A stretch of 64,000 nt of DNA, taken from the NCBI RefSeq assembly GCF_900142705.1, contig NZ_FRBV01000005.1, forward strand, positions 124,001 through 188,000. The letters run 5' to 3'. Shown in pieces: positions 7,088 to 29,551 of the stretch; position 1 is the first letter of the stretch; the number at the start of each line of letters is the position of its first letter. Position numbers and translations under genes: made by a program. Below the pieces are notes generated by a model. It did not search any database. It was not told where the DNA came from and was given only the letters and a program-made list of their open reading frames with translations. The stretch comes from Nitrosospira sp. Nsp11. GTDB taxonomy: Bacteria; Pseudomonadota; Gammaproteobacteria; Burkholderiales; Nitrosomonadaceae.

Positions 7088-7286
7088 ATTGCTCACCTGA
7101 TTTGATACTGATAATTGGCTCGTAAGATCATAACTGCCTCCACCATGCTACCCCCGAAGACGTGAAACTGCTGTTCGGCCGCGCACATACGCCGGAATGA
7201 CAGCCTGTCAATGGTGAAAGCAATTTATAGAGACAGGAATATTACCGACTCGGGCTGGGCCTGTACCGTGCCGTTTGTAGCCTCCT

Positions 7287-15583: not shown

Positions 15584-15690
15584 TACGAATATAAAGATTG
15601 CCAAAGTGTTTGGAATGGCATCTCGCGATGACGAACCGGGCCACCTTCGGTAAGTGAGCGCACCGCGATACCACGCAATTAAATAGCAGA
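15584..15690 (+). pseudogene. J-domain relic 1 (decayed 5' end of cbpA)
   Basis: The segment reads EYKD at its start (GAATATAAAGATT) and then follows the order of the cbpA 5' end at 17500 with many changes and stops; it ends in the same GCGCACCGC...CGCAATTA junction as relic 2. It sits 137 bp before the first PRC-barrel gene, the same position relic 2 has before the second. Similarity is weaker than for relic 2, so it is the older copy. Confidence 0.5.
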
Positions 15691-15691
15691 C

Positions 15692-15709
15692 ATCAATCAA
15701 TCAATCAAT
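15692..15709 (+). repeat. Tetranucleotide repeat (ATCA)4 before a ribosome binding site
   Basis: Four ATCA units plus AT end directly before the AGGAG of the first PRC-barrel gene. The second PRC-barrel gene lacks the repeat. Slippage here would change the 5' leader but not the reading frame. Confidence 0.7.
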
Positions 15710-15720
15710 AGGAGATCAAC

Positions 15721-16245
15721 ATGAACCTGAAACGTATCCGACAAATAATTATTGCGGCAATTTGCAGCTTTTCCTTGATCGGCATAGCGGCAGCCCAGAA
15801 AGATATGACGAGTGCTCCCGGAACGGGTACAACCGGCGAGGATATGAAGAGCGCTCCGGGAACCACTGCTGCCCCCGGCGCCATTACGACTGCCCCGGGA
15901 ACGAATACGCCCGCTGAAGGTTACCACAGCGCTCTCGCGCCCACTGCGGCTGAGTCCGGCCTCATTGCCACTGGCTGGCGCGTATCGAAACTCAATAAAG
16001 CAACTATTTATAACGACGCCAATGAGAAAGTTGGAAAAATTGATGATTTTATCGTTACCAAAGATGGCTCCTTGACTTTTGCCATTGTTAACCTGGGCCG
16101 ATTCCTGGGGTATGGAAATTATCTGGTTGCTATTCCCGTAAATAGATTCTCTCAAATCGTTCCCAAGGCAATTCTTCCCGGGAAGACCAAAGCTGATCTG
16201 GAAAAGCTGCCCAGATTCGAATATAAGCTCATCCTGGGGAAATAA
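15721..16245 (+). CDS. Exported PRC-barrel domain protein, copy 1
   Basis: 174 residues, AGGAG 7 nt before the start. A signal peptide (cleavage near IAAAQ) is followed by a Pro/Gly/Thr-rich region with repeated TAPGT-like units (SAPGTGTT, SAPGTTAA, TAPGTNTP), then a PRC-barrel (about residues 84-170: GWRVSKLNKATIYNDANEKVG, IDDFIVTKDGSLTFAIVNLG). PRC-barrels are small beta-barrels that mediate protein contacts; periplasmic versions are common in Betaproteobacteria and are often stress-induced. It is a paralogue of the next gene, about 80 percent identical in the barrel by eye. Confidence 0.85.
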   Translation: MNLKRIRQIIIAAICSFSLIGIAAAQKDMTSAPGTGTTGEDMKSAPGTTAAPGAITTAPGTNTPAEGYHSALAPTAAESGLIATGWRVSKLNKATIYNDANEKVGKIDDFIVTKDGSLTFAIVNLGRFLGYGNYLVAIPVNRFSQIVPKAILPGKTKADLEKLPRFEYKLILGK

Positions 16246-16249
16246 TATG

Positions 16250-16295
16250 ACGTCCGGGAGTTGTCTCGGGGCCTCCCGGCCGTGAAATCTTTTTT
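16250..16295 (+). terminator. Intrinsic terminator after PRC-barrel copy 1
   Basis: Inverted arms around CCGGGAG and CTCCCGG (16254-16279), extended by outer ACG/CGT, then a T-run at 16289-16295, starting 5 bp after the stop codon. Confidence 0.7.
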
Positions 16296-16506
16296 CCTGC
16301 TTCACATTGGAAGTCCGCATTCCAGCGGGAAGTTTTGGCCAGTTCAGTTGCGACGCGAGGAGGAATGTGCGCCGCAACATTAAAACGCGCTCAGGTATAA
16401 AGTCAGCTCGCTGAAGCAGGTGGCGCCAAAGCGATGGGGTGAAGCGCAAACAAGATTTCGCCAGGCATGTTCTCGCACGATTTAATTTATAGAAGCTTGC
16501 TCAATA
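16296..16506. other. Duplicated cbpA upstream region
   Basis: This stretch resembles the sequence before intact cbpA (17278-17496): GGTATAAA.TCAG, GTGAAGCG.AAACA, GCACGAT...AATTTATAGAAGCT. It is the promoter-side part of the duplicated unit and probably no longer drives a gene. Confidence 0.55.
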
Positions 16507-16606
16507 TTGGAATACAAAGATTACTAAAAAATAATGGGTGTTGTACGCGATGCTTCGCAGGACGACATCAGGCGGGGTACAGGAAGTGGGCGCACCGCAA
16601 GGCCGC
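16507..16606 (+). pseudogene. J-domain relic 2 (decayed 5' end of cbpA)
   Basis: The segment matches cbpA codons 1-34 closely: LEYKDY, stop, KIMGVVRDASQDDIRR, then a frameshift at the former AYRKLARK. The start ATG is TTG (16507) and the seventh codon is TAA. It ends abruptly and the second PRC-barrel gene follows 32 bp later. It shows that the cbpA 5' end was duplicated together with the PRC-barrel gene. Confidence 0.85.
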
Positions 16607-16637
16607 GCAATTAGATGGCAAACAATAGGAGACCAAC

Positions 16638-17228
16638 ATGAACCTGAAGCGTATGCGAAAAATAATTATTGCCGCAATTTGCAGCTTTTCCTTGATAGGT
16701 GTAGCAGCAGCGCAGACGACCGCTCCCGGAACGGATACAACGCGCACCGATATGAAGAATACTCCTGGAACCAATGCCGCTCCTGGCATGACGAACGCTC
16801 CCGGAGTGAAACCAGACCGCAGGCCGATGCGGGGTCCTGCTCCCGGGCCCACTGCTGCTCCGGGTGCCATTACGACAGCTCCCGGCATGGATACGCCTGC
16901 TGCCGATAGCAACGATGCCGTGCGGGACCCGGTCCAGTCCGGTCTTATTGCGAGCGGCTGGCGCGTTTCGAAGCTGAAAAAAGCAACTGTCTATAACGAC
17001 GCTAACCAGAAAATTGGAAAAATTGATGACTTTATCGTTACCAAAGATGGTTCTTTGACCTTTGCCGTTGTTAACCTGGGTAGATTTCCGGGCCGTGGCA
17101 CCTATATGGTCGCGATTCCCACGAATGACTTCTCACAAATCGTCCCCAAGGTCATTCTTCCCGGGAAAACCAAAGCAGATCTGAGACAGCTGCCCAGATT
17201 CGAGTATAAGCTCGTGCTCGGGAAATAA
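16638..17228 (+). CDS. Exported PRC-barrel domain protein, copy 2
   Basis: 196 residues with AGGAG upstream. The layout is as in copy 1: signal peptide (cleavage near VAAAQ), a longer Pro/Gly/Ala/Thr-rich linker (NAAPGMTNAPGVKP, RGPAPGPTAAPG), then the PRC-barrel (GWRVSKLKKATVYNDANQKIG, IDDFIVTKDGSLTFAVVNLG). The linker differs by insertions of the APG-type units while the barrel is conserved, which suggests the barrel is under selection. The start is 917 bp from that of copy 1. Confidence 0.85.
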   Translation: MNLKRMRKIIIAAICSFSLIGVAAAQTTAPGTDTTRTDMKNTPGTNAAPGMTNAPGVKPDRRPMRGPAPGPTAAPGAITTAPGMDTPAADSNDAVRDPVQSGLIASGWRVSKLKKATVYNDANQKIGKIDDFIVTKDGSLTFAVVNLGRFPGRGTYMVAIPTNDFSQIVPKVILPGKTKADLRQLPRFEYKLVLGK

Positions 17229-17232
17229 TCTG

Positions 17233-17275
17233 ACGTTCTGGAGTTGCCGCGGCAGCTTCAGAACGTGCGATCGTT
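17233..17275 (+). terminator. Intrinsic terminator after PRC-barrel copy 2
   Basis: Arms ACGTTCTGGAG (17233-17243) and CTTCAGAACGT (17256-17266) form an 11-bp stem, followed by TTTTT after GCGATCG. It corresponds in position to the terminator after copy 1. Confidence 0.75.
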
Positions 17276-17496
17276 TTTCATTTTTCAAATATTGAAAGTT
17301 CGCGTTCCAGGAGTATCAGTTTTGGCTAGGGCTTTTGGCCAGTTCATTTGGCACTTCAGGAAGAATGTGTGCCGTAACATTTAATTTAGAACACGATCGG
17401 GTATAAAATCAGTCCGTAAAGCGGCGACCGTGAAGCGTAAACAGATTTAGCGGGCGATGTTCCCGCACGATGCAATTTATAGAAGCTCGCTTATCG

Positions 17497-18477
17497 ATGG
17501 AATACAAGGATTATTACAAAATAATGGGTGTCGCACGCGACGCCTCGCAGGACGACCTCAAGCGTGCGTACAGGAAGCTGGCGCGCAAGTACCATCCGGA
17601 CGTAAGCAAGGAACCACAGGCTGAAGCTCGCTTCAAAGAGTTGGGCGAAGCCTATGAAGTTCTCAAGGACCCTGAAAAACGGGTTGCATACGACCAACTC
17701 GGCACGAACTGGAAAGCAAACCAGGAGTTCCGGCCGCCGCCGGGCTGGAATGCCGGTTTCGAATTTTCCCAGCAGGGGTTTACCGGGGGGGACGCTTCGC
17801 AGTTCAGCGATTTTTTCGAATCATTGTTCGGCCGGGGCTTTCACTCACAGGACAACCGGTCCGGCAGCGCGCCGGGCGCTGGCCGAAGCCCATCTCATCA
17901 CGCTCCGGGCGAGGATCACTATGCAAAAGTAATGATCGATCTGGAGGATTCCTACACGGGCGCCACCCGCACCATCTCTTTGCAAGTACCCGAAGTCGAC
18001 GGTCAGGGACGTGTATCGACGCGCGAACACAAGCTCAACGTCGTCATCCCGAGTGGTATTCGACCCAAGCAGTATATTCGCCTTGCGGGACAGGGCGCAT
18101 TGGGCCAGGGACAAGGCAAACGCGGGGATCTGTATCTTGAAGTTGAATTTCGCCCGCACCCCTACTATAGGGTGGAGGACAACGACGTCTATCTCGATCT
18201 GCCGGTTGCGCCATGGGAAACCGCCTTGGGCGCCACCGTGAAAGTACCTACACCCGGCGGAACAATTGAACTCAAGATACCTCCGGGTTCAGCGACAGGG
18301 AGCAAGTTGCGTTTGAAGGGACGCGGCATCCCCGGCAAAACGCCGGGCGATTTCTATGTCGTATTGCGTATCGTATCGCCGCCAGCCACCGATGAAACGG
18401 CCAGGTCGTTCTACCGGAACATGGCCGAGCAGTTCAAGTCTTTCAATCCCCGGGCCAAACTTGGAGTGCCACCATGA
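17497..18477 (+). CDS. cbpA: DnaJ-family co-chaperone CbpA
   Basis: 326 residues. CbpA is a DnaJ paralogue without the zinc-finger domain that stimulates DnaK ATPase and binds curved DNA. The J-domain has EYKDYYKIMGVARDAS and the HPD motif at residues 33-35; a Gly/Phe-rich linker with FFESLFGRGF follows, then the two-part C-terminal substrate-binding domain (LDLPVAPWETALGATVKVPT, GSKLRLKGRGIPG). The start at 17497 matches the family N-terminus; the frame is open to 17470. The stop overlaps the start of cbpM by 4 bp (ATGA). Confidence 0.94.
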   Translation: MEYKDYYKIMGVARDASQDDLKRAYRKLARKYHPDVSKEPQAEARFKELGEAYEVLKDPEKRVAYDQLGTNWKANQEFRPPPGWNAGFEFSQQGFTGGDASQFSDFFESLFGRGFHSQDNRSGSAPGAGRSPSHHAPGEDHYAKVMIDLEDSYTGATRTISLQVPEVDGQGRVSTREHKLNVVIPSGIRPKQYIRLAGQGALGQGQGKRGDLYLEVEFRPHPYYRVEDNDVYLDLPVAPWETALGATVKVPTPGGTIELKIPPGSATGSKLRLKGRGIPGKTPGDFYVVLRIVSPPATDETARSFYRNMAEQFKSFNPRAKLGVPP

Positions 18478-18836
18478 TGGAGGAAAACAGAGGGCCGGAT
18501 ATCCGGCCTGGAAGACTCCCCGAGGCGCAGGCTGAGCTCAGCGCAATCGTTATCGATGAGCAAAACGCCCTGACGCTGTCCGAGCTTAGCCGCGCCTGTG
18601 CCGTACAAACCGGCTATATCATCGAATTGGTAGACGAAGGCTTGCTCACCCCGGAAGCGGCGGAAGAGCATGAGCCTCAGCGCTGGCGCTTTACGGGCAC
18701 GCAAATGCGCCGCGCCAGAGTGGCGCTGCGGCTGCAGCACGATCTTGGCGTCAACCTTGCCGGCGTAGCACTGGCTCTGCAGCTGCTGGATGAAGTTGAA
18801 ATGCTGCGAACGCGGTTAGATACCGAACGCGGTTAG
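18474..18836 (+). CDS. cbpM: Chaperone modulator CbpM
   Basis: 120 residues. CbpM binds the J-domain of CbpA and inhibits it. The MerR-like helix-turn-helix (TLSELSRACAVQTGYIIELVDEGLLTP, residues about 34-60) and the following RWRFTGTQMRRARVALRLQHDLGVNLAGVALAL are typical of the CbpM/MerR_2 family. It overlaps cbpA by 4 bp, so translation is probably coupled. GGAG stands 7 nt before the start. Confidence 0.93.
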   Translation: MMEENRGPDIRPGRLPEAQAELSAIVIDEQNALTLSELSRACAVQTGYIIELVDEGLLTPEAAEEHEPQRWRFTGTQMRRARVALRLQHDLGVNLAGVALALQLLDEVEMLRTRLDTERG

Positions 18837-19015
18837 GTACGTTACACCGGATGACCAGTGATTGAGATTGATAGCCTACTCGTTAATCTGCGCTTAGTCT
18901 GCGTTAGTCTGACAACGATATTGCAACATTGAATCTGCAACATCGTGCTGCCGCATCGGTTGGCTCATCTCTCGCCTGTATCATGGCTTATGCTGCAGTC
19001 GTCTCCTTGATTTTC

Positions 19016-19044
19016 TTGACACCAATTAGATAATATGCTAATAA
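19016..19044 (+). promoter_or_regulatory. Sigma70-type promoter
   Basis: TTGACA at 19016-19021, a 17-bp spacer, and TAATAA at 19039-19044. It points at the small gene starting at 19093. Confidence 0.6.
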
Positions 19045-19092
19045 GTTAGCTATCTTTCTTTATGGAGAAAATCAGGATGAGAGGCAGCGGCA

Positions 19093-19299
19093 ATGCGGGT
19101 TCTTAAAGAAAAAGACAGAATTCTATATGACAAACTGGTTCGTCTTGCGGGCGGTAACTCGGGGATTGTAATTGAGGTTCTTTCCAACCCGCATAGATCT
19201 TCCGTCGACCTGAGAACGGCTATCAGAGAAATTGAAGAACTACGTAATCGCCAAAGCCGCGAACCCGCTTCTTCCATTTCCCAGGCAGCGACTGCTTAA
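19093..19299 (+). CDS. Small hydrophilic protein of unknown function
   Basis: 68 residues, charged, with no signal or membrane segment (MRVLKEKDRILYDKLVRLAGG, then IVIEVLSNPHRSSVDLRTAIREIEELRNRQ). GAGAGGCAGC precedes the ATG, and a good promoter lies 50 bp upstream. A nine-codon frame starting at 19078 overlaps it and could be a leader. No family is recognised. Confidence 0.5.
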   Translation: MRVLKEKDRILYDKLVRLAGGNSGIVIEVLSNPHRSSVDLRTAIREIEELRNRQSREPASSISQAATA

Positions 19300-19369
19300 A
19301 ACTTTGAACGAGCCCGGGGCGCGCTGCGCGCCGAAGCTTATTCAACAATTCCCCCATTCCTGACCACTC

Positions 19370-20233
19370 ATGTCCATTGCCTGGGCAACAGTTGTAATCG
19401 TTGTCCTGCTGCTGCCCGGATTTGCCTTTTTCTGGGGACTTTACGCCCCGAACCAGGTCACGCGAGAAGTATCCCCCGCCAGTCCGCTGGCACAACTGGC
19501 TGGTGTCGTCGTCATCAGCTTCTTTGTGCATGCGTTTGCCTATTTAATCATCAACACAAAGCTTTGCACGAGCCCAAATTTCTTTTTGGAACCGCCCTGT
19601 GTCGATTTCGATGAGCTTTCCGCCCTGCTCCGCATCGACGCCTTCACGCAATCGGGTGCTGGCCCTCACGTATTCCAGCACATGCTTGACCGGTACGTTG
19701 CGTGGATTCTCTTCTACTTCCTGGCGACGGGCTCCCTAACGGGTGTGACCGGGTTCGGGGCCGGTAAGCTGATTGAAAACGGCCATCTTCGCGGATTCAC
19801 GCGCCACCGGTATTTGTTCATGCTGGAGAGAGGAAGAAAAAAGAAGGCATCCGAACTCGTGCGGGCACACGTTTTATCCCGTACCCAGAATTCGAATAAT
19901 GTCGTTTTCTATGATGGGATAGTGCAGGATTTTTTTGCGAAGGCAGACGGCACGATCAGTTATATCGTCCTGCATGATGCAAATACTTCGGCAATAGAGA
20001 TAACCGCGAGCGGCGCCACACATTCCCCAACATCGATTCCTCTCGACATAGGCGGCGGAGGCCGTGGAACAAAACCTTTTCTGGTTATCACCAGCGATGA
20101 TATCGCGAATGTATATTTCGAGCCGCTCAACACTGTAAGAATCGAAAGTGGCGTTGATACGGATATTCTGGACAGAGCCATCGACGAACTGGAACACTTG
20201 AGGAATCAGAATCACTTCGAAGCGGCAGAATGA
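19370..20233 (+). CDS. Membrane-anchored protein of unknown function (DUF6338-like layout)
   Basis: 287 residues. Three hydrophobic segments are visible: residues 5-24 (WATVVIVVLLLPGFAFFWG), 42-63 and 110-130. The remaining 150 residues are soluble and begin with a basic helix (RGRKKKASELVRAHV); they form a beta-rich domain (NNVVFYDGIVQDFFAKADGTISYIVL). This layout resembles DUF6338 membrane proteins, but I am not certain. No clear ribosome binding site precedes 19370. A 19-bp tandem duplication (20224-20261) covers the stop codon. Confidence 0.6.
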   Translation: MSIAWATVVIVVLLLPGFAFFWGLYAPNQVTREVSPASPLAQLAGVVVISFFVHAFAYLIINTKLCTSPNFFLEPPCVDFDELSALLRIDAFTQSGAGPHVFQHMLDRYVAWILFYFLATGSLTGVTGFGAGKLIENGHLRGFTRHRYLFMLERGRKKKASELVRAHVLSRTQNSNNVVFYDGIVQDFFAKADGTISYIVLHDANTSAIEITASGATHSPTSIPLDIGGGGRGTKPFLVITSDDIANVYFEPLNTVRIESGVDTDILDRAIDELEHLRNQNHFEAAE

Positions 20234-20261
20234 GTTCCGGGAGGCAGAATGAGTTCCGGAA
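20224..20261 (+). repeat. 19-bp tandem duplication
   Basis: The unit GGCAGAATGAGTTCCGGGA occurs twice in a row (second copy with one change). The first copy contains the TGA stop of the membrane-protein gene. Confidence 0.8.
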
Positions 20262-20384
20262 ACTTGGGTACCCGGAATCTTACCTTTCGCACCCGTAGTC
20301 AAGGGTTGCGAAAGATATAACTGTTCCAGCGCAAGACGGTCGAAAAAAGATGCGTGTCCTGCTCATTAAAAGGCCCGCCACCCT

Positions 20385-20798
20385 TTAAATCAAGTGTTTT
20401 GCTGCCTCTGGCTCTGTACCTCCAGACTTCGGAACGCACTCGCTACAGCGACCATAAAGAATAAGATCATAACTCTCGACGATGAAATCGGCGGGCGCCG
20501 GAAGATTGTTATTCTTGATCCTCTCATGGATATCAAAAACCTTGCTGCATGAACTGCACTTGAAGTGGTAATGCTTCCCTAGCCTTGTAAGCTCGTAGCG
20601 GTCCGCCTCGCCGGGAAGTTTTACCGGCACGATCCAGCCTTCGGTGATCAAATCCTTCAGCGTCCGGTAAACCGTCGCAATACTCAGCGACGGCACGACG
20701 GCCTGCCCCTCTACTAGAATTTCCTGTGTCGAAAGTGGCCGCCCGACTTCTGTAATCACACCAAGAATGGCATTGCGCTGCCGGGTATTACGCTCCAT
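20385..20798 (-). CDS. zur: Fur-family regulator, probably zinc-responsive (Zur)
   Basis: 137 residues. Fur-family repressors bind DNA when loaded with metal. The winged helix includes the recognition helix SLSIATVYRTLKDL (residues 37-50); the structural zinc site is formed by two CxxC pairs (CSSC at 81-84, CSEC at 118-121), and KHYHFK precedes the first. The start at 20798 fits the family; the frame is open further upstream. It is divergent from a PEP-CTERM gene with a perfect 24-bp palindrome between them. Assignment to zinc rather than iron or peroxide rests on the neighbours (COG0523 GTPase, DksA2-like protein, DUF1826). Confidence 0.82.
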   Translation of the reverse strand: MERNTRQRNAILGVITEVGRPLSTQEILVEGQAVVPSLSIATVYRTLKDLITEGWIVPVKLPGEADRYELTRLGKHYHFKCSSCSKVFDIHERIKNNNLPAPADFIVESYDLILYGRCSECVPKSGGTEPEAAKHLI

Positions 20799-20903
20799 GC
20801 ATCTTATCCCGATAAAAAGAAATATAAGTGGCGGTAGAGGTTGAATGCCTGAGTTTAACGCCGCCGAAAAATCCCTTGAGCAATAATCAGCCTTGACCAT
20901 ATG

Positions 20904-20927
20904 CTATTGATAAACTATTATCAATAG
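20904..20927. promoter_or_regulatory. Fur/Zur-type operator palindrome
   Basis: Arms CTATTGATAA (20904-20913) and TTATCAATAG (20918-20927) are perfect inverted repeats around ACTA. The core TGATAA...TTATCA is typical of Fur-family boxes. It lies between the divergent regulator and PEP-CTERM genes and can control both. Confidence 0.75.
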
Positions 20928-21010
20928 CGCGATTCCCCGGTATAAGCTCGGCTTATGCATTGGCAATGACACGACTACAATTTTATCTTACACCTACACA
21001 TGGAGAAAGT

Positions 21011-21880
21011 ATGCTTTCGAACGCGTTATATGTCGGCTTGGCTGGCTGGGCGGTTATGATGGTTTCCTTCAATGTCTCGGCATCATCACGGCATGATGAA
21101 GGTATCGGCTTCTACATCGGTTACGATGGGCTAGCAACTATCGCTTCAGGCACTTATGCCGGGTTGCCCAATCCCAACGCGGACCATCTCACTCTATTGC
21201 TCGATCACGGCGAGCATTTTCACGGTATCGGCGCCTACAGCTACAGCGGGCAGGCATCTGCCCCCGATGTACTGCCTACCAATGCGAACAATCGTGTTCC
21301 GGAAATTTCCTCCCTCGAAAGTCCCTTGCCACTTGAAATGGGCAGCGGACTCTACGATGGAACATTGCGCAGCACCGTTGGAAGTTCGGAATACAGCCAT
21401 CTCGGCATTGCGTCGATCCAATCTCTCTCGGGTCACGCTTCGGGAAGCATGGAGGACATCCTGTTTCAGAGCAGCAGTAATCGCTGGTCGGGACCGTTGA
21501 ACAATGTGGAGCTTGGCCTCAGGCTTGTTGAGAGCACGGAGGGGTTGCATGTGGGAACCGAAGCGACAAAGGATATCTATGGCACCGGTGATGTATTCAA
21601 CCTGGGCATGAGTAATAACTTCGAGTTCAAGCCGATCTACTGGGTCGACGCATCCGCTCCTGGCGGCATCTATTCTGCGACTTTTGAGCTGCTGAATACG
21701 GAAACAGGCTCGTCCATTAAGGATTCGGGTACTTTCCATCTGGATTTTGCTGTTTCGCCGATTCCGGAACCAAGCACCTACGCCATGCTTCTCGCAGGCC
21801 TGTTCTTTGTGACGTGGGCAGCGCGCAGGCCCCGGACAAGAGCGACAGAGTTTCATCGGCGTGCCAACCATGATGAGTGA
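21011..21880 (+). CDS. PEP-CTERM surface protein, probably Zur-repressed (all3515-like)
   Basis: 289 residues with GGAGAAAG before the ATG at 21011. A signal peptide ends near VSASS. The mature protein has a His-rich beginning ([20 protein letters not shown]) that could bind zinc, a beta-rich body, and a C-terminal sorting signal: [18 protein letters not shown] followed by an Arg-rich tail (AARRPRTRA). PEP-CTERM proteins are processed by an exosortase and exported to the surface or matrix. The position after a Zur-type box and before a COG0523 GTPase matches what I recall of the all3515 family of Zur-repressed PEP-CTERM proteins. Confidence 0.82.
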
Positions 21881-21887
21881 GATTGTA

Positions 21888-23141
21888 ATGACAACAGTGG
21901 AAAAACGTTTGCCGGTGACGGTACTCTCGGGATTTCTCGGCGCAGGCAAGACGACCTTGCTTAATCACGTCCTGGCCAATCGCGAGGGGTTGCGCGTAGC
22001 GGTAATCGTAAACGACATGAGTGAAGTCAATATCGATGCCTCTCTCATCGAAAGAGGCGCCCAAAACGCAGGTGCTGCTTTATCGCGCACTGAAGAAAGA
22101 TTGGTGGAAATGAGTAACGGCTGCATTTGTTGCACCTTGCGCGAGGATTTGCTTACAGAAGTACGCAAGCTCTGCGCCGAGGGTCGTTTCGACTATCTCC
22201 TGATCGAATCGACCGGAATCGGTGAACCGATGCCTGTCGCAGCAACATTTGATTTCCGGGATGAGGATGGCAATTCGCTCAGCGATATCGCCCGGATAGA
22301 CACTATGGTCACTGTGGTCGATGGAGTGAACCTTTTGCGGGATTTCTCCAGCGAAGATCTACTGGCCCAGCGCGGCGAAGTGGCGGGTGATGAAGACAAT
22401 CGATCTTTGGCTGGCCTATTGACGGAGCAGATCGAATTCGCGGACGTAATCGTGATAAGCAAGATAGATCAGGTAACACCAGGCCAACTCAATGAAGTCA
22501 TGGGCGTGATCAAGGCCTTGAATCCGGAAGCGGAAATAACGTACGCCAGGCATGGCGATGTTCCGTTGAACGAAATCCTCAATACAGGCCGGTTCGACCT
22601 AGATCGTGCCAGCAAGATGGCGGGTTGGTTTAAAGAGCTTGCCGGAGAACATACGCCGGAAACAGAGGAATTCGGCATTGTCAGTTTCGTCTTGCGCTTG
22701 CATGCACCATTGCATCCCCAACGTTTTGCAGCCTTTATCGAGCGTCCGCTACGGGGGATCCTGAGGGCAAAAGGCTATATATGGCTGGCAAGCCGTCCCG
22801 AATGGGCAATCTCCTATTCGCGCTGCGGCAACATCGCCAATGTGGAGCCCGTGGGGCGTTGGTGGGCGGCGGTGCCAAAAGAGCGCTGGCCAGCGGAAGG
22901 AAGCGAAGAGCGTGCATCGATAGAGCAGAACTGGCGACAGCCATACGGAGACAGAATCAATGAAGTCGTCTTCATTGGTCGCGATATGGATCGGGATTTG
23001 ATAAAAAAAGCTTTTTCCGAATGCCAGCTTCGGTCTTATGAAATCCGCAAGGGCCTGGATTACTGGCAGAAGCTGCCAGACCAGTTTCCGGAGTGGGTTG
23101 CGGCGGCAGCGCTCGCGGAAGAGGCAGTGGAACACATATGA
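21888..23141 (+). CDS. COG0523 (CobW/G3E) GTPase, metal chaperone
   Basis: 417 residues. COG0523 GTPases move metal to client enzymes; the Zur-regulated ones (ZigA, ZNG1) handle zinc under starvation. Seen: Walker A GFLGAGKT (15-22), the metal motif CICC (C79, C81, C82), IESTGIGEP, the guanine-specificity SKID and a C-terminal CobW_C domain. The start at 21888 is 8 bp after the PEP-CTERM stop; an ATG at 21873 overlapping that gene is the alternative. Its stop overlaps an ATG at 23138, so the next small frame was translationally coupled. Confidence 0.92.
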
Positions 23142-23353
23142 GCGCGATAATTCCACAGGCTTTCGATAAGTGGCGGCAGTAAGTTGAGCACGACTGCGGG
23201 CTTCCACTTACTCAGGAATTCATTCAAAAGCGATTAACCGTATTTCGTCAGCCACGGCATGAGGAAACACTCCGCTTCATTCATCATTATGGAGAAACGC
23301 ACTTGAAAAGAATCCTGGATTATAAGCGTGCGTTTAACAAGCTTTTTAAATAA
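23138..23353 (+). pseudogene. Small conserved-looking gene interrupted by an in-frame TAA
   Basis: ATG at 23138 overlaps the GTPase stop (ATGA). The frame reads [14 protein letters not shown], then TAA at 23180-23182, and continues without another stop for 56 codons (VEHDCGLPLTQEFIQKRL, RHEETLRFIHHYGETHLKRIL) to TAA at 23351. The second part has protein-like composition and no start codon of its own near its beginning. A single C-to-T change (CAA to TAA) would explain the break. I do not know the family; small frames of this kind follow COG0523 genes in other proteobacteria as far as I recall. Confidence 0.7.
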
Positions 23354-23394
23354 TGGGCCGCACGAGGCTGATGGAACCAATGGAAGTTCGCATG

Positions 23395-23423
23395 TTGGCA
23401 CGCCAGCTTGGCTTAACTATGAT
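23395..23423 (+). promoter_or_regulatory. Promoter for the dksA2-like gene
   Basis: TTGGCA at 23395-23400, a 17-bp spacer, and TATGAT at 23418-23423. The expected transcription start falls at or next to the ATG at 23429, and no ribosome binding site is present, which suggests a leaderless mRNA. Confidence 0.55.
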
Positions 23424-23428
23424 ATGTC

Positions 23429-23851
23429 ATGAAAACTAAGCACTCCTCTTCCGTGGAGCACGCCATTCGCGAGGTCCCGTCCGGGGAGTACATGTGCGCG
23501 GCACAATTGGCATTCTTTCGTTTCCGGCTGGAAGATGAGCGGCGCATGTTGCTGGACAGCGCCAAAGGCACGCTCGAGCAGATGCAGGCTATTGTTTCGG
23601 AGTCGGATTCAAACGACCGGGCAAGTATGGAGGAGAAATTTTCCCTTGAGTTTCGAGTGAGGGACCGCGAGCGTAAATTGCTCAAGAAAATCGAAGACGC
23701 CCTCCTGAGTATCGAGGATGGGACGTATGGCTGGTGCGTGGAAACCGGGGAGCCCATCGGCATCGCGCGCCTTTTGGCGAGATCGACGGCGTCGCTCTGC
23801 CTTGAAGCACAAGAGCGTCACGAACGTTACGAGCGAAGTTATCGAATCTAG
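23429..23851 (+). CDS. dksA2: DksA2-like, zinc-independent RNA polymerase regulator
   Basis: 140 residues. DksA binds the secondary channel of RNA polymerase and works with ppGpp. The coiled-coil region (residues about 35-95) is followed by the globular part GWCVETGEPIGIARL and TASLCLEAQERHE. Only the first Cys of each pair is kept (C103, C124); the partners are Thr106 and Ala127. This C-T-C-A pattern is that of Pseudomonas aeruginosa DksA2, which functions without zinc and is induced by zinc starvation. The first 20 residues differ from DksA. Context with Zur and COG0523 supports the same role here. Confidence 0.88.
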   Translation: MKTKHSSSVEHAIREVPSGEYMCAAQLAFFRFRLEDERRMLLDSAKGTLEQMQAIVSESDSNDRASMEEKFSLEFRVRDRERKLLKKIEDALLSIEDGTYGWCVETGEPIGIARLLARSTASLCLEAQERHERYERSYRI

Positions 23852-23863
23852 TGTCCAGGGAAG

Positions 23864-24643
23864 GTGTCGCAATCGACGATGAATGATGAACTCGCTTGCA
23901 TTGGGATGGGTGGTCCAAATCTGCTGCAGGATAGTCGCGAGGCCAGCTTGGCTCAAGCGATGGATAAGCATGCCGAGCCTTCTCAAGCATCATCGCAAGA
24001 TCAAATATCTCATCCGTATGCATGCACTACGGCTGAGCCCGTTGAACTGATACGGATATTTCATCCGCTTATCCAGGTTGTCCGGTGGCGGCGGCAGGCT
24101 GATCCTGGTATGGAGGCTTACTTGCAGCAGACGCCGGTAGATAGCCATTTAAGAAATGGTTTTCGTACCGTTATTCAGGCTGGGGAGAGCCTGGAGCTTG
24201 ATTTCTTGCCAGACCTTCCGGGCCGACGAGCGATGGCTCAGGATATTTCGCTTATTACTGATATTTACTCTGAGCTTCTTGGTTGCGATGAAATCGCCCT
24301 ACGCCTGGAAGTTTCCAGCAAAGCCATGTGCCCACGTTTTCACGTGGATCGCACAGGCATCCGTCTCATTTGCACCTATCGTGGACAGGGAACAGAATGG
24401 ATAGACGACAAGTGGGTTGATCGTAGCAAGCTCGGGCAAGGATCGCTGGGTCTTGCCGATGATGCGTCTGGCTTGTTCGATGCCAGAACCACGGTTGAGG
24501 CAGCCTCACCATTCGACGTCTTGCTCTTGAAGGGCTCGTTGTGGCAGGAGAACATTCGAAAAGGTGCAATCCATCGTTCACCCTCCGTCATTGCCGGGAG
24601 CGGACTGCGCATTCTCCTTGTGATGGATGCACTCTGGACTTGA
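23864..24643 (+). CDS. DUF1826 family protein
   Basis: 259 residues from a GTG at 23864; an ATG at 23879 is the alternative and neither has an ideally placed ribosome binding site. The body shows DUF1826 features: a central MAQDISLITDIYSELLGCDEIALRLEV, CPRFHVDRTGIRLICTYRGQGTEW, and the C-terminal ASPFDVLLLKGSLW...GAIHRSPSV. CPRFHVD and HRSP look like metal or substrate ligands of a cupin-like fold (inference). DUF1826 genes occur in Zur regulons of other proteobacteria. It starts 13 bp after dksA2, so the two form an operon. Confidence 0.82.
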   Translation: MSQSTMNDELACIGMGGPNLLQDSREASLAQAMDKHAEPSQASSQDQISHPYACTTAEPVELIRIFHPLIQVVRWRRQADPGMEAYLQQTPVDSHLRNGFRTVIQAGESLELDFLPDLPGRRAMAQDISLITDIYSELLGCDEIALRLEVSSKAMCPRFHVDRTGIRLICTYRGQGTEWIDDKWVDRSKLGQGSLGLADDASGLFDARTTVEAASPFDVLLLKGSLWQENIRKGAIHRSPSVIAGSGLRILLVMDALWT

Positions 24644-24848
24644 TAAAATAAGCCTGACTTCTCCCCCGAAGCTTTCCGATCCATTCAACGGTCGCTGATC
24701 GTACGAGTGGGCGCTGCCGCTCTCCGCTTCCGCCTTTATGTACGAAAACGAACGGACGAGCGGCTCAACTACCCATACTATCCAGGCTTGATATTCGCCC
24801 CTATGAAAGACGGGGCAATATCCCCATGGAACGAATCAGGAGCTGATA

Positions 24849-25184
24849 ATGGAAAAGGAACCGTTGATCAAGTTAACCTGGCGCGGCCATGAAACGATCG
24901 AATCGATACCGCCGTTGCTGAGTGATGCGCGGCAAATAGAAATTATCCTGCCAACCAACTATAACCACTCTTTGTTTTGCGCGCTTCATCCTGGCGAGCC
25001 TCCAGCTCAGTTGGAAGAAATTAATACTTCGGGTGGCCCGGAGCTTCTCGCTGCCATCGCGACCGTCAAAGGACTGGAAGAGTTTATTGCACTCGCAAGA
25101 GCGCTGACCACAGCGCACATCGAGGTGCATGTCGTCAGTCCACCCAGTGTGATCATCAAGCCCGTCAAGCATCCCGACGCATAA
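24849..25184 (+). CDS. Small protein encoded upstream of a phospholipase D fusion
   Basis: 111 residues with AGGAGCTG before the ATG. No signal peptide or membrane segment; mixed alpha/beta (IKLTWRGHETIESIPPLL, then ELLAAIATVKGLEEFIALARAL). Not recognised. Its TAA shares one base with the ATG of the next gene, so the two are translationally coupled and probably act together. Confidence 0.7.
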   Translation: MEKEPLIKLTWRGHETIESIPPLLSDARQIEIILPTNYNHSLFCALHPGEPPAQLEEINTSGGPELLAAIATVKGLEEFIALARALTTAHIEVHVVSPPSVIIKPVKHPDA

Positions 25185-27328
25185 TGGCGCATTCCGCCAT
25201 CCTGAAGCCAGGCGTTAACTGTTGGCGCATCGAACATGCCGATCGGGCCGCATTTCTTGTGGATGGGGCTGAATTTTTTCGGGCTTTTCGTGAAACAGTA
25301 AAACAGGCACAGCGTTCGGTATTGATCATTGCCTGGGATATCGACAGCCGCATCGATCTTGTTCGGGAAGGCAAACCCGACGGACTGCCGGTGAATTTGA
25401 GTGCTTTCCTCAATTGTATGGTCCAGCGCAATAGCAAACTCCATATCCATGTGCTGGACTGGGACTTCACCATGATCTTCGCGCCCGCGCGGGAGTGGAT
25501 GCCGCTTTACAAGCAGGAATGGAACGGCCATCGGCGATTGCACTTTTTCCTTGACGATCAGCATCCAACGGGCGCGTGCCATCACCAGAAAATTGTCGTG
25601 GTGGATGACCAGGTGGCGTTTGTGGGCGGGTTGGACCTGACAACCGGTCGCTGGGATACGCCCGAGCATCGGCCTGAGGATCCGCGCCGGCGCGATCTGG
25701 AAGCAGAACCGGTACCACAGCCCTATCATGATATTCAGATGATAGTTCGCGGCCCTGTTGCAGCCCTGCTGGGAGATATCGCGCGCGAGCGATGGTTTCG
25801 CGCAACCGGGCAGAAGCTGGCTGCTCCGGAGCGCCGGGCCGGCGCCAGCTACTGGCCTGGCTACCTGGCGCCGGATGTGGAAAACATCCAGGTCGCCATT
25901 GCCCGTACTATTCCAAGATATAAAAACACCGCAGAGGTGCGCGAGGTGGAACAGCTTCTGCTCAATGCCATCGCCGCTGCCCGGAATACAATCTATATTG
26001 AAGCCCAATACTTCACGGCGGACAAGATCGGCGCCGCGCTGGCAAAACGCCTGGAAGAACAAGACGGCCCCGAAATCGCCGTGGTGTTGCCTGAACATAC
26101 GGATGGCTGGTTATCGCAGAACACGATGGATGTCCTTCGGGAACGCTTATTGAGGCGGCTGAAGGCGTCAGACCGTCAGGACCGTTTCCGCCTGTACTAC
26201 CCGTGTATACCCAAGCTTGATGGGAAATGCGTCAATGTACATTCCAAAATGATCATCATTGACGATCAACTGGCACGCGTAGGCTCGGCGAATCTCAACA
26301 ACCGCTCGATGGGGCTTGATACCGAATGCGATCTCGTGCTTGAGGCAAAAGGCGAAACGCACGTTCAGCACGCTATCGCGGCTTTCCGCAACCGCCTGTT
26401 GGGGGAGCATCTCGGCGTGGAGCCCAGCGAGATCGTTGCACGCCTGGCGCAAGACGACTCCCTGATCCGTGCCATCGAGTCACTTCGCGGTACAGCGCGT
26501 ACCTTACTTCCGTTGCCGCTTCGCGTAACGGCCGAGATGGATGCTTTGGTGCCGGATGCCCAGGTTATCGATCCGGACCAGCCTATGGACGCCGACCAAC
26601 TAATCGACGAGTATGTGCTTGGGGAAGAACGCGAACCCGCCCGCTATCATATCTACCTGGTCGCATTCATCCTCGCATCCATCCTGGGATTAACCACCCT
26701 ATGGCACTGGTCGCCGCTTCGGGAGTGGGTTAACGTAGAAACATTGGTAGGCTTGGCCGCCGAATTCGAGCAAGCCCGCGGCGCCCCATTATTTGCGCTT
26801 GGCGTTTTCCTCATCGGCGGCCTGATTGCGTTTCCGCTTACGGTACTTATTATTGCTTGCGTCCTGGTGTTTGGCCCATGGCAGGGTTTTCTTTATTCGC
26901 TGATCGGCGCGTTGTTGAGTGCAATGTCAACCTACGCGCTGGGCCATTTGCTGGGCCGTAATACCGTACGCCGGTTTGCCGGCAAAAAGATTCGGGAACT
27001 GAACAGGCGGCTGGCTTATCGGGGAATCATGACTATCATTATCGTTCGCATCGTTCCACTCGCGCCGTTTTCGGTCATCAATATGATTGCCGGGGCCTCG
27101 CAAATTCGCTTCCGCGATTTTGTCTTCGGCAGCGCCATTGGATTGCTGCCGGGGATGGCAGGAATATCGTTATTTACAGATCGGCTGGCTGCCACGATCC
27201 AAAAACCTGATTTACCGGCCTTTGCGGTCTTGGCAACAGTTGTCGCTATCATTATCGTCAGCGGCTGGACATTCTGGCGGTGGGAAGAACGCAAGCGAAA
27301 CTCCCGATTGAGAGCGCACGCCGATTGA
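25184..27328 (+). CDS. Phospholipase D-family protein fused to a VTT (DedA/TVP38) membrane domain
   Basis: 714 residues. The N-terminal 470 residues contain two HKD motifs, H134-Q-K136 with D141 and a second HSKMIIIDD near residue 350 followed by GSANLNNRS, as in cardiolipin synthases and phospholipases D. A short hydrophobic segment (YLVAFILASILGLTTLW) leads into a C-terminal VTT/SNARE-assoc domain (FPLTVLIIACVLVFGPWQGF, RIVPLAPFSVINMIAGAS). VTT proteins scramble or flip lipids. The fusion suggests a phospholipid-modifying enzyme coupled to lipid movement across the inner membrane. The EEP hydrolase next door is a common partner. Confidence 0.9.
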   Translation: MAHSAILKPGVNCWRIEHADRAAFLVDGAEFFRAFRETVKQAQRSVLIIAWDIDSRIDLVREGKPDGLPVNLSAFLNCMVQRNSKLHIHVLDWDFTMIFAPAREWMPLYKQEWNGHRRLHFFLDDQHPTGACHHQKIVVVDDQVAFVGGLDLTTGRWDTPEHRPEDPRRRDLEAEPVPQPYHDIQMIVRGPVAALLGDIARERWFRATGQKLAAPERRAGASYWPGYLAPDVENIQVAIARTIPRYKNTAEVREVEQLLLNAIAAARNTIYIEAQYFTADKIGAALAKRLEEQDGPEIAVVLPEHTDGWLSQNTMDVLRERLLRRLKASDRQDRFRLYYPCIPKLDGKCVNVHSKMIIIDDQLARVGSANLNNRSMGLDTECDLVLEAKGETHVQHAIAAFRNRLLGEHLGVEPSEIVARLAQDDSLIRAIESLRGTARTLLPLPLRVTAEMDALVPDAQVIDPDQPMDADQLIDEYVLGEEREPARYHIYLVAFILASILGLTTLWHWSPLREWVNVETLVGLAAEFEQARGAPLFALGVFLIGGLIAFPLTVLIIACVLVFGPWQGFLYSLIGALLSAMSTYALGHLLGRNTVRRFAGKKIRELNRRLAYRGIMTIIIVRIVPLAPFSVINMIAGASQIRFRDFVFGSAIGLLPGMAGISLFTDRLAATIQKPDLPAFAVLATVVAIIIVSGWTFWRWEERKRNSRLRAHAD

Positions 27329-27451
27329 AAAATACCTGACGTGGGTTTGCAGCCCGGCAAAAACACTGTGATATTAAATAACAGCGCGGCAGCTTGCTCG
27401 TACTGCTATTCTTCATGATAGAAAGTTTATTCTTTGATCATTACGTAATTT

Positions 27452-28138
27452 ATGCACCTTACGCTGGTTACATACAATATACATGCCTGTGTCGGCACCG
27501 ATGGCCGCTTCGAACCAGCGCGCATCGCAGGCGTGCTTCGTGAGCTGGACGCAGATGTAGTGGCGCTGCAGGAAGTGGACCACCATCATGTCGACGGTCA
27601 TGACCTGCTGGATTACCTGGCTGCGAAAACCGGCTTGACCGCCATTGCCGGCCCTACCCTGCTGCGTGAATCCCGGCATTATGGAAATGCGATATTGACA
27701 AAACTCCCCATTTTGACAGTGAATCGCGTGGATCTGACCCTTCCCGGCCGGGAACCGCGCGGGGCGCTTGATGTGACCCTCGACGGTAAAGAACGGCATG
27801 TGCAGGTGGTCGCAACCCATCTTGGACTCAAACCCTGGGAGCGGCGCCAGCAGGTTCGTCAGTTGCTCAAGCTGTTCGACATTGGCTCCAAGGATATTTA
27901 CGTGCTGCTGGGCGATTTGAACGAATGGTTTCTCTGGGGACGTCCGCTGCGCTGGCTACACGGCCACTTCAGATCCACGCCTCACGTCGCAACCTACCCG
28001 TCGCGCCAACCCTTCATGGCCCTGGACCGGCTTTGGGTGCATCCGCGTCGCCGGCTCGCAAAATTGGAGGTCCACGCCAGCAGCCTCGCACGGATTGCTT
28101 CCGACCACCTTCCCTTGAAAGGTACTATTGAAATTTAA
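27452..28138 (+). CDS. Endonuclease/exonuclease/phosphatase family protein
   Basis: 228 residues. The EEP fold includes DNases, inositol phosphatases and sphingomyelinases. Seen: TYNIHACVG, ALQEVDHHH (metal-binding Glu), GNAILTKLP, ATHLGL, LGDLNEW, and SDHLPLKGTIEI at the end, which together are the full active site. No signal peptide. Position after the phospholipase D/VTT gene suggests a phosphodiesterase of lipid-derived substrates rather than a DNase (inference). Confidence 0.85.
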   Translation: MHLTLVTYNIHACVGTDGRFEPARIAGVLRELDADVVALQEVDHHHVDGHDLLDYLAAKTGLTAIAGPTLLRESRHYGNAILTKLPILTVNRVDLTLPGREPRGALDVTLDGKERHVQVVATHLGLKPWERRQQVRQLLKLFDIGSKDIYVLLGDLNEWFLWGRPLRWLHGHFRSTPHVATYPSRQPFMALDRLWVHPRRRLAKLEVHASSLARIASDHLPLKGTIEI

Positions 28139-28639
28139 CTCGCGAAGATGGAGAGATTTCACCTCATCCTGGGGTTTTCTTGTGCTTTATATCGCGGTGC
28201 TACAGTCTCGTTATCAGCCTGCTTCGGAATTCTCATAGCTGAATTCGGGAATTGGCGCGATTGGGATACATAGCCTCAGCGGGTCATCAGGAAATGGCTC
28301 TTCTCAGAGGTATACCGTGGACACCGTGCAAATACTTGAATAATTGAATAATTGATTGCTCTCACTCCGCGATGGCAGGCTCTCACATGGCCCGAACTTG
28401 CAGTACTTTTGGACTACGTGTACAACCGCACAGATCGCTTGCGGGGGGAAGTACATCATTTTAAAAGAGGTATGATTTGGTGCTGTGTTCACTCAGCCTG
28501 TATAGATAAAACGCAGACAAATTTTCTCTCACGGTCGAGCGAGTCTTCCGCCAGCTCAAGTATCAGGCCAGGTAGAGCTCGCGAATGAAAAAAACTTTCG
28601 GAACGGTGATGGTGCGGCATCTACTTGGAGGAAATTAAA
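28139..28639. other. Intergenic region, about 500 bp
   Basis: No supported gene. An open frame of 78 codons at 28352-28588 has no ribosome binding site. A short TTGAATAA direct repeat occurs near 28337-28354. The ribosome binding site of the next gene is at 28626-28633. Confidence 0.4.
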
Positions 28640-29185
28640 ATGTTAAAAAAACTTGTAACGATCGCTGCGGTTACCGCAGGCGGACTCATGCTGTCAAAAA
28701 AAATCAGGAACTCTCGCGGTTCTGAAAACACGTCGATGATGGAAGATTCGATCGAGGTTAATTTGCCGATAAGCACGGTATACAATCAATGGACCCAGTT
28801 CGAGGATTTTCCCCACTTTATGAAAGGAGTATGCGAAGTACGGCAAATTGATGACACGCATTTGCACTGGCGCGCAAAAATTGGCGGTAAAGAAACGCAA
28901 TGGGACGCTGAGATCACAGAGCAAGTGCCGGAAACGCGAATTGCCTGGCGCAGCACGAGCGGCGCTAAAAACGAAGGCGTCGTCAAGTTCTACAAGATAT
29001 CCGATTCGATAACCCGGATCGTGCTGCAAATGGATTACGGTCCCAAGGGTATTATTGAAGAGATTGGCGATGCGTTGGGGCTGGTAAAGATGAGAACGAG
29101 CGGAGATCTCAAGCGTTTCAAGGAATTTCTTGAAAACCGCGGGAAAGAAACGGGAGAGTGGCGCGGCTCCGTCGCCCAACACTAG
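28640..29185 (+). CDS. SRPBCC-family protein (polyketide cyclase-like)
   Basis: 181 residues with GGAGGAAA before the ATG at 28640. A hydrophobic N-terminus (LVTIAAVTAGGLMLSKKI) probably anchors it. The rest is a START/SRPBCC fold: SIEVNLPISTVYNQWTQFEDFPHFM, WDAEITEQVPETRIAWRS, and a C-terminal helix (SGDLKRFKEFLENRG). This type (COG5637) is common in stress-tolerant bacteria; ligand unknown. Confidence 0.8.
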   Translation: MLKKLVTIAAVTAGGLMLSKKIRNSRGSENTSMMEDSIEVNLPISTVYNQWTQFEDFPHFMKGVCEVRQIDDTHLHWRAKIGGKETQWDAEITEQVPETRIAWRSTSGAKNEGVVKFYKISDSITRIVLQMDYGPKGIIEEIGDALGLVKMRTSGDLKRFKEFLENRGKETGEWRGSVAQH

Positions 29186-29551
29186 CATTCCAGACAAGCC
29201 CCTGAGTTCACTTACGGGGACGGAAGCAGCTTTCCCTGGGCAGGATGGTCGGAAGGCAAAGAGGTGGAGATACGCATCCGCCGACTCTTGACCACGAAAT
29301 TGCAAAGTAGCTCGCCAAGTAGCGCGCGCAGTAACACGTCTTTGCTACTTCAATCCGTACCACCTTTCATGGTGTTCAATCCGGTAGCGCTACCCCTTTT
29401 TCACGGCGTTCCTCAGGTAACCTCCTCACATATCTCCAGGGCGGGCAGAAGCGCTCCACTGGCAACAGCTGGTGCAAATTCCGCAGTAGAGTTTTCATGG
29501 TAGAGTTCATTGCTCAGTTTTTTACTCGACCTATCAAAGCAGGGGATCAAC
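29186..29551. other. Intergenic region, about 365 bp
   Basis: No gene seen. It holds short complementary segments (AAGTAGC near 29305 and GCTACTT near 29344) that could pair. AGGGGATC precedes the start at 29552. Confidence 0.4.

Follow-up and report, generated by a model that had tools for sequence, protein, structure and literature searches.

A FUR-family regulator in a conserved block of zinc-linked genes of Nitrosospira: a probable dedicated repressor beside a second Zur-like protein

In Nitrosospira sp. Nsp11 the gene of a FUR-family regulator, here called Fur2, is found back to back with zepA (all3515)-zigA-broken small gene-dksA2-DUF1826. The locus raises the question of what this regulator is: the Zur protein of the cell, as an earlier note made from the DNA had it, a sensor of another signal, or a dedicated repressor of the genes beside it. 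The last of these is our preferred reading, with a probability of about 0.78: the block is a zinc-starvation operon with Fur2 as its own repressor and as a second zinc regulator beside another protein, Fur3. The window, meaning the whole stretch of DNA that was analysed, is 64,000 nucleotides long, and the block contains the following features:

20385..20798, minus strand: Fur2, a FUR-family regulator of 137 amino acids with CxxC pairs at residues 81/84 and 118/121; start placed by conservation
20903..20928, no strand: candidate operator GCTATTGATAA-ACTA-TTATCAATAGC, from an arm search and comparison of Fur2 loci
20893..20921, plus strand: promoter-like TTGACC-17-TATTAT on the zepA side, overlapped by the operator; consensus match
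20896..20924, minus strand: promoter-like TTGATA-17-TATGGT on the regulator side, overlapped by the operator; consensus match
21011..21880, plus strand: ZepA (all3515 family) PEP-CTERM exoprotein, by NF040463; start from the ribosome-binding site and relatives
21888..23141, plus strand: ZigA-type COG0523 GTPase with a CICC motif; profile match and motif
about 23138..23353, plus strand: small conserved gene with an early in-frame stop in this copy; intact copies in relatives
23429..23851, plus strand: DksA paralogue with the pattern C-T-C-A, lacking two of the four zinc-finger cysteines; TIGR02420 and motif
23864..24643, plus strand: DUF1826 protein, by PF08856

The gene families first read from the DNA held up against profile models and motifs. 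Fur2 belongs to the FUR superfamily (PF01475, 64.5 bits, cut-off 23.1), and ZepA to the all3515/ZepA family (NF040463, 282 bits, cut-off 75); the latter also exceeds the cut-off of the PEP-CTERM model PF07589 (23.9 against 20.7), and its N-terminus shows a hydrophobic start when judged by eye. The ZigA-type GTPase matches NF038288 over its full length with 592.8 bits, just under the cut-off of 600, and the DUF1826 protein reaches 170 bits with PF08856 (cut-off 22). The DksA paralogue scores 126 bits with TIGR02420 (cut-off 115.5). Its C-T-C-A pattern is also found in 10 of 10 translated relatives, and an ordinary C4 DksA is encoded at G000:C11 in the same genome; it thus has both marks of a zinc-sparing DksA2, cysteine loss and a C4 paralogue elsewhere. 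The small gene, whose frame overlaps the ZigA stop, is indeed broken as had been proposed: the frame is open in six of eight relatives examined (L021, L022, L024, L026, L029, and L140, the start codon not being clear in L026), broken in L081 and absent in L080. An intact relative gave no match in Pfam or NCBIfam. ZepA most likely starts at 21011, while the start of Fur2, at first placed at 20900, is most likely 20798, which is the start conserved in relatives.

Several of these families are known from zinc-linked systems. A 2024 description of ZepA included a FUR gene next to it and a 16-bp palindrome, and the excerpts of that paper indicate that ZepA and its neighbourhood were shown or proposed to be zinc-linked (PMC10957091, PLoS Biol). 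As in the present locus, zepA is there found beside genes for a FUR protein, DksA, a COG0523 protein, a TonB receptor, and PEP-CTERM proteins. The palindrome lies upstream of proteobacterial zepA, mostly overlapping or following the promoter; TGATAA-N4-TTATCA in Nsp11 is also 16 bp, a likeness judged by length. The authors called the FUR gene a likely Zur whose identity is not deducible from sequence, and the excerpts do not mention that a genome has another Zur-like regulator besides, the place that Fur3 takes here (PMC10957091). The P. aeruginosa dksA2-zigA-PA5534 neighbourhood, which like the present block joins a DksA paralogue and ZigA with a further gene, has an upstream Zur site and rises without zinc, according to an excerpt of the source (PMC11761036). 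That operon is governed by the global Zur, whereas the Nitrosospira block contains ZepA in addition and a local regulator from another FUR branch. Zur-regulated COG0523 clusters have also been reported, in an excerpt, to come with DUF1826 and with DksA paralogues that lack the C4 motif (PMC2770081).

Fur2 is present in 12 of 23 Nitrosospira genomes, and the genes for ZigA, DksA2, and DUF1826 are found beside it in all 12, although ZigA and DksA2 are truncated in L028. ZepA accompanies it in 10 of the 12 loci. Full-length DUF1826 is encoded in exactly the 12 Fur2 genomes and is absent from the other 11 (Fisher p 7e-7, uncorrected for relatedness). The comparison thereby establishes the gene block and its co-inheritance. 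It also bears out the proposal that the genes form one conserved zinc-starvation block, with the box as candidate operator; their assignment as a putative zinc-starvation operon is well supported. The island can hardly be called complete, as the earlier note did. This copy of the block has only one box and a broken small gene, a search of the genome for ZnuA gave no match at E 0.001, and the gene of the ZnuD-like receptor is at a distant site with another operator. A ZIP-family gene is present in the genome.

The candidate operator had been taken for a perfect 24-bp palindrome at 20904-20927. The palindrome is real, but it consists of two perfect 11-bp arms, 20903-20913 and 20918-20928, with a non-palindromic spacer of 4 nt between them. 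The box is located 105 bp upstream of the Fur2 start at 20798 and overlaps both divergent promoter-like sites. The block has no other perfect arm pair of at least 10 bp (gap up to 10), and the window has four in all. When 20200-24800 was shuffled by dinucleotides, 3 of 200 shuffles gave 11-bp arms separated by 4 nt or less; for the intergenic stretch 1 of 2000 did so. That stretch has 4 promoter-like matches, about the number seen in shuffles (3.5), and the TTGAC of the zepA-side site is kept in all 10 aligned loci. Elsewhere in the genome, a near match to the box at G000:C24:333928 adjoins an integrase-like gene and is taken as chance or unknown.

All 12 Fur2 loci of the genus contain the box. 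This is partly expected, because the search pattern was taken from the box in the window and the matrix was built from 10 of the 12 genus boxes; further boxes in the islands and the 69 distant loci described below are cleaner tests. The Fur2 genomes hold 30 pattern matches, 19 of them within 10 kb of Fur2, and the 11 found elsewhere are as many as the 11 genomes that lack Fur2 have in total. Among the 19, seven come on top of the boxes adjoining Fur2 itself, and the matrix adds one in G013. These eight additional boxes recur in five islands and all precede a PEP-CTERM gene; three also precede a divergent ZnuD-like receptor. A perfect copy of the box in G015, which lacks Fur2, is located away from zinc genes and near dehydrogenase- and hydrolase-like genes (named by eye), and this counts against the box being the Fur2 operator. 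A second-site match in G014 (C202:164449), suggestive but single, precedes a MerC-family gene by 109 bp. This gene is accompanied by a fragment of the NicO family and a frame resembling part of ZnuD by eye, and a Fur3-type box is located close by.

Outside the nitrifiers, 50 of 69 loci with Fur2 relatives have a box of at least 12 bits upstream, compared with 2 of 1380 control windows drawn from the same loci, this being the stricter control and the one relied on; the other 19 loci have no box at 12 bits. A first control used block shuffles, 60 for each locus, and 71 of 80 loci gave p under 0.02. Allowing up to 2 mismatches, half sites are found 4 nt apart in 54 of 80 loci and 3 nt apart in none; at 2 mismatches, spacings of 1 and 7 nt are seen in 12 and 20 of the 80 loci, respectively. 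The spacing bears on whether the main Fur protein, Fur1, which is present in the genome, could use the box as an iron Fur box. The TGATAA and TTATCA halves do resemble a Fur box. The 7-1-7 Fur box has half sites 3 nt apart, precisely the arrangement not seen at the Fur2 loci, and although a FUR match is obtained in all genomes of the genus, those lacking Fur2 have only background numbers of the box. A role as iron Fur box is thus extremely unlikely. In each comparative test made the box behaves as the operator of the block, and this assignment is supported.

The divergent neighbours of the distant Fur2 relatives were scanned as 66 ORFs from 65 of the 69 non-nitrifier loci. L156 and L162 were left out, L163 and L192 gave no ORF, L143 gave two, and the nearest ORF was used instead of the longest for L187, L188, L206, and L210. 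The scan yielded 11 COG0523 proteins, 7 ABC ATPases, 6 ZnuA-type proteins, 4 TonB receptors, 3 DUF1826 proteins, 2 ABC-3 proteins, and 1 ZrgA, leaving 32 ORFs outside these families if none is counted twice. The count is probably low, because many antisense frames were called as ORFs in the GC-rich loci. The facing genes that can be named belong mostly to zinc families.

Fur2 and the E. coli-type Zur have the FUR fold, two CxxC pairs, and zinc-gene targets in common, but Fur2 falls outside the Zur branch, has no cysteine at the Zur sensor position and is associated with a different operator. A tree was made with 21 of 81 Fur2-type and 9 of 21 Fur3-type proteins, actinobacterial and Bacillus Zur not being included. 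It separates E. coli Zur, Fur3, and a G010 protein from Fur2 and Fur1 with a support of 94/90, which narrowly misses the star level; support for the Fur2 group is 89/75. An AlphaFold2 model of Fur2 (mean pLDDT 85.5) matches FUR structures, in a fold search that does not separate Zur from Fur or PerR, and the best solved relative is a PerR chain. At the Zur sensor site, the ScZur C79 position, Fur2 has T71 (alignment with 3mwm), and a cysteine is found there in 1 of 81 relatives. By these comparisons Fur2 is not the E. coli-type Zur but belongs to a separate FUR branch, and calling it "the" Zur was premature, as Fur3 is closer to that protein. Through its target families and operator Fur2 would still fit a Zur by function, presumably with zinc as the metal.

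The similarity to PerR opens for a reading where Fur2 is a PerR- or Mur-like sensor of manganese or peroxide and this signal induces the zinc genes. Indeed, the best curated NCBIfam model for Fur2 is the Mn-dependent PerR NF047406, with 73 bits at a cut-off of 200; no direct source for the Mn-dependent PerR of Thermus was found among the literature matches listed. Residues E69, H76, and H78 are invariant in the 81 Fur2-type proteins and D89 is conserved (68 D, 13 E), as in PerR-like sites. In Meiothermus the Fur2 relatives have MntC-like neighbours, and for the three facing binding proteins examined the best-scoring model is one for manganese, although its cut-off is not reached, so the metal may not be uniform across the Fur2 clade. 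However, PerR His37, the ligand oxidised by peroxide, aligns with R20 of Fur2, and all 81 proteins have arginine here. No catalase, peroxiredoxin, or superoxide dismutase was seen among the 25 of 26 neighbour families shown, and the conserved neighbours in Nitrosospira are zinc-starvation families. Sensing of manganese or peroxide is consequently regarded as very unlikely.

Fur3 is encoded in the same genome, next to the gene of a ZnuD-like receptor, and has a conserved operator that differs from the box. It comes out closest to E. coli Zur in the solved-structure search, in NCBIfam, and in the tree, and is found in 20 of 23 Nitrosospira genomes. Its operator TGCAAC-N3-GTTGCA is perfect in 15 of 20 loci, and the other five have one changed outer base. 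One might then ask if Fur3 runs this operon within a single zinc regulon, leaving Fur2 some other purpose, and weak Fur3-type matches with 2 mismatches do occur in 5 of 11 other Fur2 islands. However, no Fur3 operator with up to 2 mismatches is found at positions 15000-30000 of the window, and the operator of the block tracks Fur2 rather than Fur3, being kept in G017, which has Fur2 and lacks Fur3, and upstream of the distant Fur2 relatives. Moreover, 4 of 13 Fur2 carriers outside the genus have a Fur3-type gene. Control by Fur3 is therefore given very little probability, and the comparison establishes separate operators.

According to the preferred reading, with Fur2 as dedicated repressor, zinc would act as co-repressor on a block that is probably one transcript. 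When zinc is sufficient, zinc-bound Fur2 would sit on 20903-20928, covering the -10 region and spacer of the zepA promoter as well as the divergent promoter of its own gene, and both would be off. As zinc falls Fur2 would be released, and ZepA, ZigA, the DksA paralogue, and the DUF1826 protein would be made. ZepA may then catch zinc at the surface, ZigA is a GTPase thought to pass zinc to priority proteins, and the DksA paralogue presumably needs less zinc or none. The Fur3 circuit, with its different operator at the ZnuD-like receptor, would run alongside.

Gene sets of this kind are known; what is less ordinary is the arrangement with two regulators. Two zinc regulators from different FUR branches might divide the work in one cell, Fur3 serving the core uptake at the outer membrane, while Fur2 would be a travelling local switch for the ZepA/ZigA block, acting through a 6-4-6 operator of its own. 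The Fur2 branch is patchily distributed over Betaproteobacteria and Meiothermus. Different zinc set levels could then give a stepped response, with two sensors instead of one with graded sites; we consider the chances of this division of work to be even. For two Zur proteins per cell, one genomic remark was found, on a second Zur in Frankia DC12 (excerpt of PMC4531530), and more may be in print.

For a soil ammonia oxidiser, the locus represents a compact set of zinc-saving and zinc-catching genes with an apparent local switch. For the FUR gene that adjoins zepA in these nitrifiers it offers a concrete identity that can be tested; genes of this kind were named from context only in the excerpts of PMC10957091. 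It is also a warning that annotation of such genes by similarity as PerR or Fur is likely to be wrong. With the operator rule, a pair of TGATAA half sites spaced by 4 nt, targets can be searched for in many genomes. If both regulators sense zinc, nitrifiers would provide a natural example of a cell with two zinc sensors, each having its own operator.

The zinc block lies on contig C33 of a 3.2-Mb genome. The earlier note had placed a FUR-family gene, a gene for a PEP-CTERM surface protein (here zepA), a COG0523 gene, a broken frame, a DksA paralogue with the C-T-C-A pattern and a DUF1826 gene at 20385-24643, and all of these are present there; the gene starts and the precise extent of the palindrome had to be revised.

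Genes of the zinc block
Within 20385-24643, - strand: FUR-family gene (Fur2), divergent from the zepA side
Within 20385-24643, + strand: zepA (all3515 family), first gene opposite Fur2
Within 20385-24643, + strand: ZigA-type COG0523 GTPase, after zepA
23138-23353, + strand: small frame, broken, between ZigA and the DksA paralogue
Within 20385-24643, + strand: DksA paralogue with C-T-C-A, after the broken small frame
Within 20385-24643, + strand: DUF1826, last gene of the block

The small gene at 23138-23353 is conserved and is broken by an early stop in Nsp11, while the frame is open in six of the eight relatives inspected; no named family was found for it. Between the CbpA-CbpM pair and Fur2 lies an ORF of 287 amino acids (19370-20233) for which neither Pfam nor NCBIfam gives a match at E 0.01; tblastn did not find it in a relative (L024) that retains CbpA, CbpM and the zinc block. 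Other features of the window, as judged by eye, are tandem near-duplicate, secreted-looking proteins (15721-16245 and 16638-17228), an ORF resembling a fusion of phospholipase-D-like and DedA-like membrane domains (25184-27328), and one resembling a fusion between a DsbA-like domain and an NhaA antiporter (49836-51683).

The candidate operator between Fur2 and zepA, the box, had been described as a perfect 24-bp palindrome. The inverted repeat is real, and its actual form is two perfect 11-bp arms separated by a 4-nt spacer. Such an arm pair is rare according to a shuffling control, and the box overlaps a promoter-like pair on either strand. In an alignment of ten loci from the genus, the intergenic DNA is poorly conserved except for two conspicuous elements, a TTGAC motif and the box. 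The box is also found in two further Fur2 genomes (G013 and G020). The remaining perfect inverted repeats of the window are located at 52566-52597 (14-bp arms), 52673-52703 (11-bp) and 38146-38171 (11-bp).

The genome encodes three FUR proteins, Fur2 among them. Fur1 is an iron Fur (NF006999, 187 bits, cut-off 146). Fur3 has E. coli Zur (4mtd) as its closest solved structure and Zur as its top NCBIfam model (40 bits, below the cut-off of 167); its gene precedes one for a small protein and then a TonB receptor whose top curated model is ZnuD (483 bits, below the cut-off of 950). When 41 sequences were placed in one tree, E. coli Zur and E. coli Fur serving as yardsticks, Fur3 groups with E. coli Zur and Fur2 falls on the opposite side (94/90), the support for the Fur2 group being 89/75. 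The warning in the earlier note that the regulator could be misread was justified: similarity alone would mislead. The closest solved structure to Fur2 is PerR; R20 of Fur2 aligns with the position of PerR His37, and T71 with the sensor cysteine of Streptomyces Zur. R20, E69, H76, H78 and four cysteines are invariant across 81 Fur2-type proteins, and a cysteine is found at the T71 position in only one of these 81.

Within the genus the block travels as a unit. Fur2 is found in 12 of 23 genomes, and it is adjoined by ZigA, DksA2 and DUF1826 in all 12, ZigA and DksA2 being truncated in one locus (L028), and by ZepA in ten. No full-length DUF1826 was found in any of the 11 genus genomes without Fur2; one of them (G010) has a 38-residue fragment. 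In L028, from an N. multiformis MAG, a ZigA remnant of about 54 residues runs into a DksA2 without a start (10236-10664), which could be an assembly fault. Extra boxes occur in the islands of G014, G017 and G018 (two each) and of G013 and G016 (one each). All eight precede a gene with a PEP-CTERM-like tail on its product (two tails checked with Pfam), and three additionally precede a divergent ZnuD-like receptor, one of these scoring 339 bits with NCBIfam, below the cut-off of 950. Outside the islands, matches to the box pattern are equally common with and without Fur2, at 11 in the 12 Fur2 genomes and 11 in the 11 others.

Fur3 is associated with another operator. TGCAAC-N3-GTTGCA is found upstream of Fur3 in 15 of 20 genus loci, and a one-base variant in the other five. 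Around Fur2 in the window no copy of it occurs, allowing up to two mismatches; five other Fur2 islands contain scattered matches at two mismatches. The island of G013 contains a true Fur3 box because the Fur3 gene is located there, about 3.6 kb from Fur2, each gene retaining its own operator type. Fur3-type and Fur2-type boxes also lie about 540 bp apart in a stretch of contig C202 of G014 (L126, around 6900-8065), together with a MerC-family gene, a fragment of the NicO family and a frame that by eye looks like what is left of ZnuD. Both regulators are encoded in 11 of the 23 genomes. In G017 Fur2 is present and Fur3 was not found, and neither was found in G002, a genome that is 80% complete. 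G010 is without both; there a Zur of the E. coli type (138 bits, below the cut-off of 167) adjoins a ZnuD-like receptor, and the locus (L069, contig C15) also holds the DUF1826 fragment, a picture that would fit an exchange of the zinc regulator. Among 200 genomes of the order, 13 carriers of Fur2 lie outside the genus, and a Fur3-type gene (139 bits or more) is found in four of them; some of the others may thus have Fur2 as their sole regulator of this kind.

A scan of named genomes gave 340 Fur2 relatives, and the best 80 loci, which were retained, come from nitrifiers, Burkholderiales, Meiothermus, Gemmatimonadetes and others. In the 69 of these that are not from Nitrosospira, Nitrosovibrio or Nitrosomonas, a box of at least 12 bits is found upstream of the regulator in 50, versus 2 of 1380 windows drawn from these 69 loci. 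When up to two mismatches are allowed, a half-site spacing of 4 nt occurs in 54 of the best 80 loci, one of 7 nt in 20, one of 1 nt in 12 and one of 3 nt in none; with up to one mismatch the 4-, 1- and 7-nt spacings are found in 34, 4 and 1. The divergent neighbours that could be named belong mostly to zinc families (34 of 66 ORFs, provided none is counted twice). Three neighboring ABC ATPases that were inspected have zinc AztA as top model, and one exceeds its cut-off. Caution as to the metal sensed is called for mainly because three binding proteins from Meiothermus match manganese MntC best, all below cut-off.

In Anabaena, ZepA is an exoprotein under Zur control that mediates zinc uptake, and proteobacterial homologues adjoin a FUR gene; genes for DksA, COG0523 and TonB proteins are nearby, and a 16-bp palindrome lies upstream (PMC10957091). 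The Nsp11 block is alike in having zepA beside a FUR gene, DksA, COG0523 and an upstream palindrome. Other studies describe Zur sites and a zinc response for the DksA2-ZigA neighborhood of P. aeruginosa (PMC11761036), and DksA paralogues without a zinc finger as well as DUF1826 in Zur clusters (PMC2770081). The module thus belongs to a type already described. Of the three FUR genes of N. europaea, one groups with Zur and another with iron Furs despite missing their ligands (PMC3050691). The portions available of these four papers (PMC10957091, PMC11761036, PMC2770081, PMC3050691) contain no mention of a separate regulator branch, of a 4-nt-spaced operator across distant taxa, or of coexistence with a second Zur-like regulator that has a different operator.

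Zinc as the metal sensed and repression as the mode of action are proposed for Fur2 from the sequence comparisons. These comparisons give good support to the arrangement as a zinc-starvation operon that is genuine, conserved and equipped with a putative local repressor.
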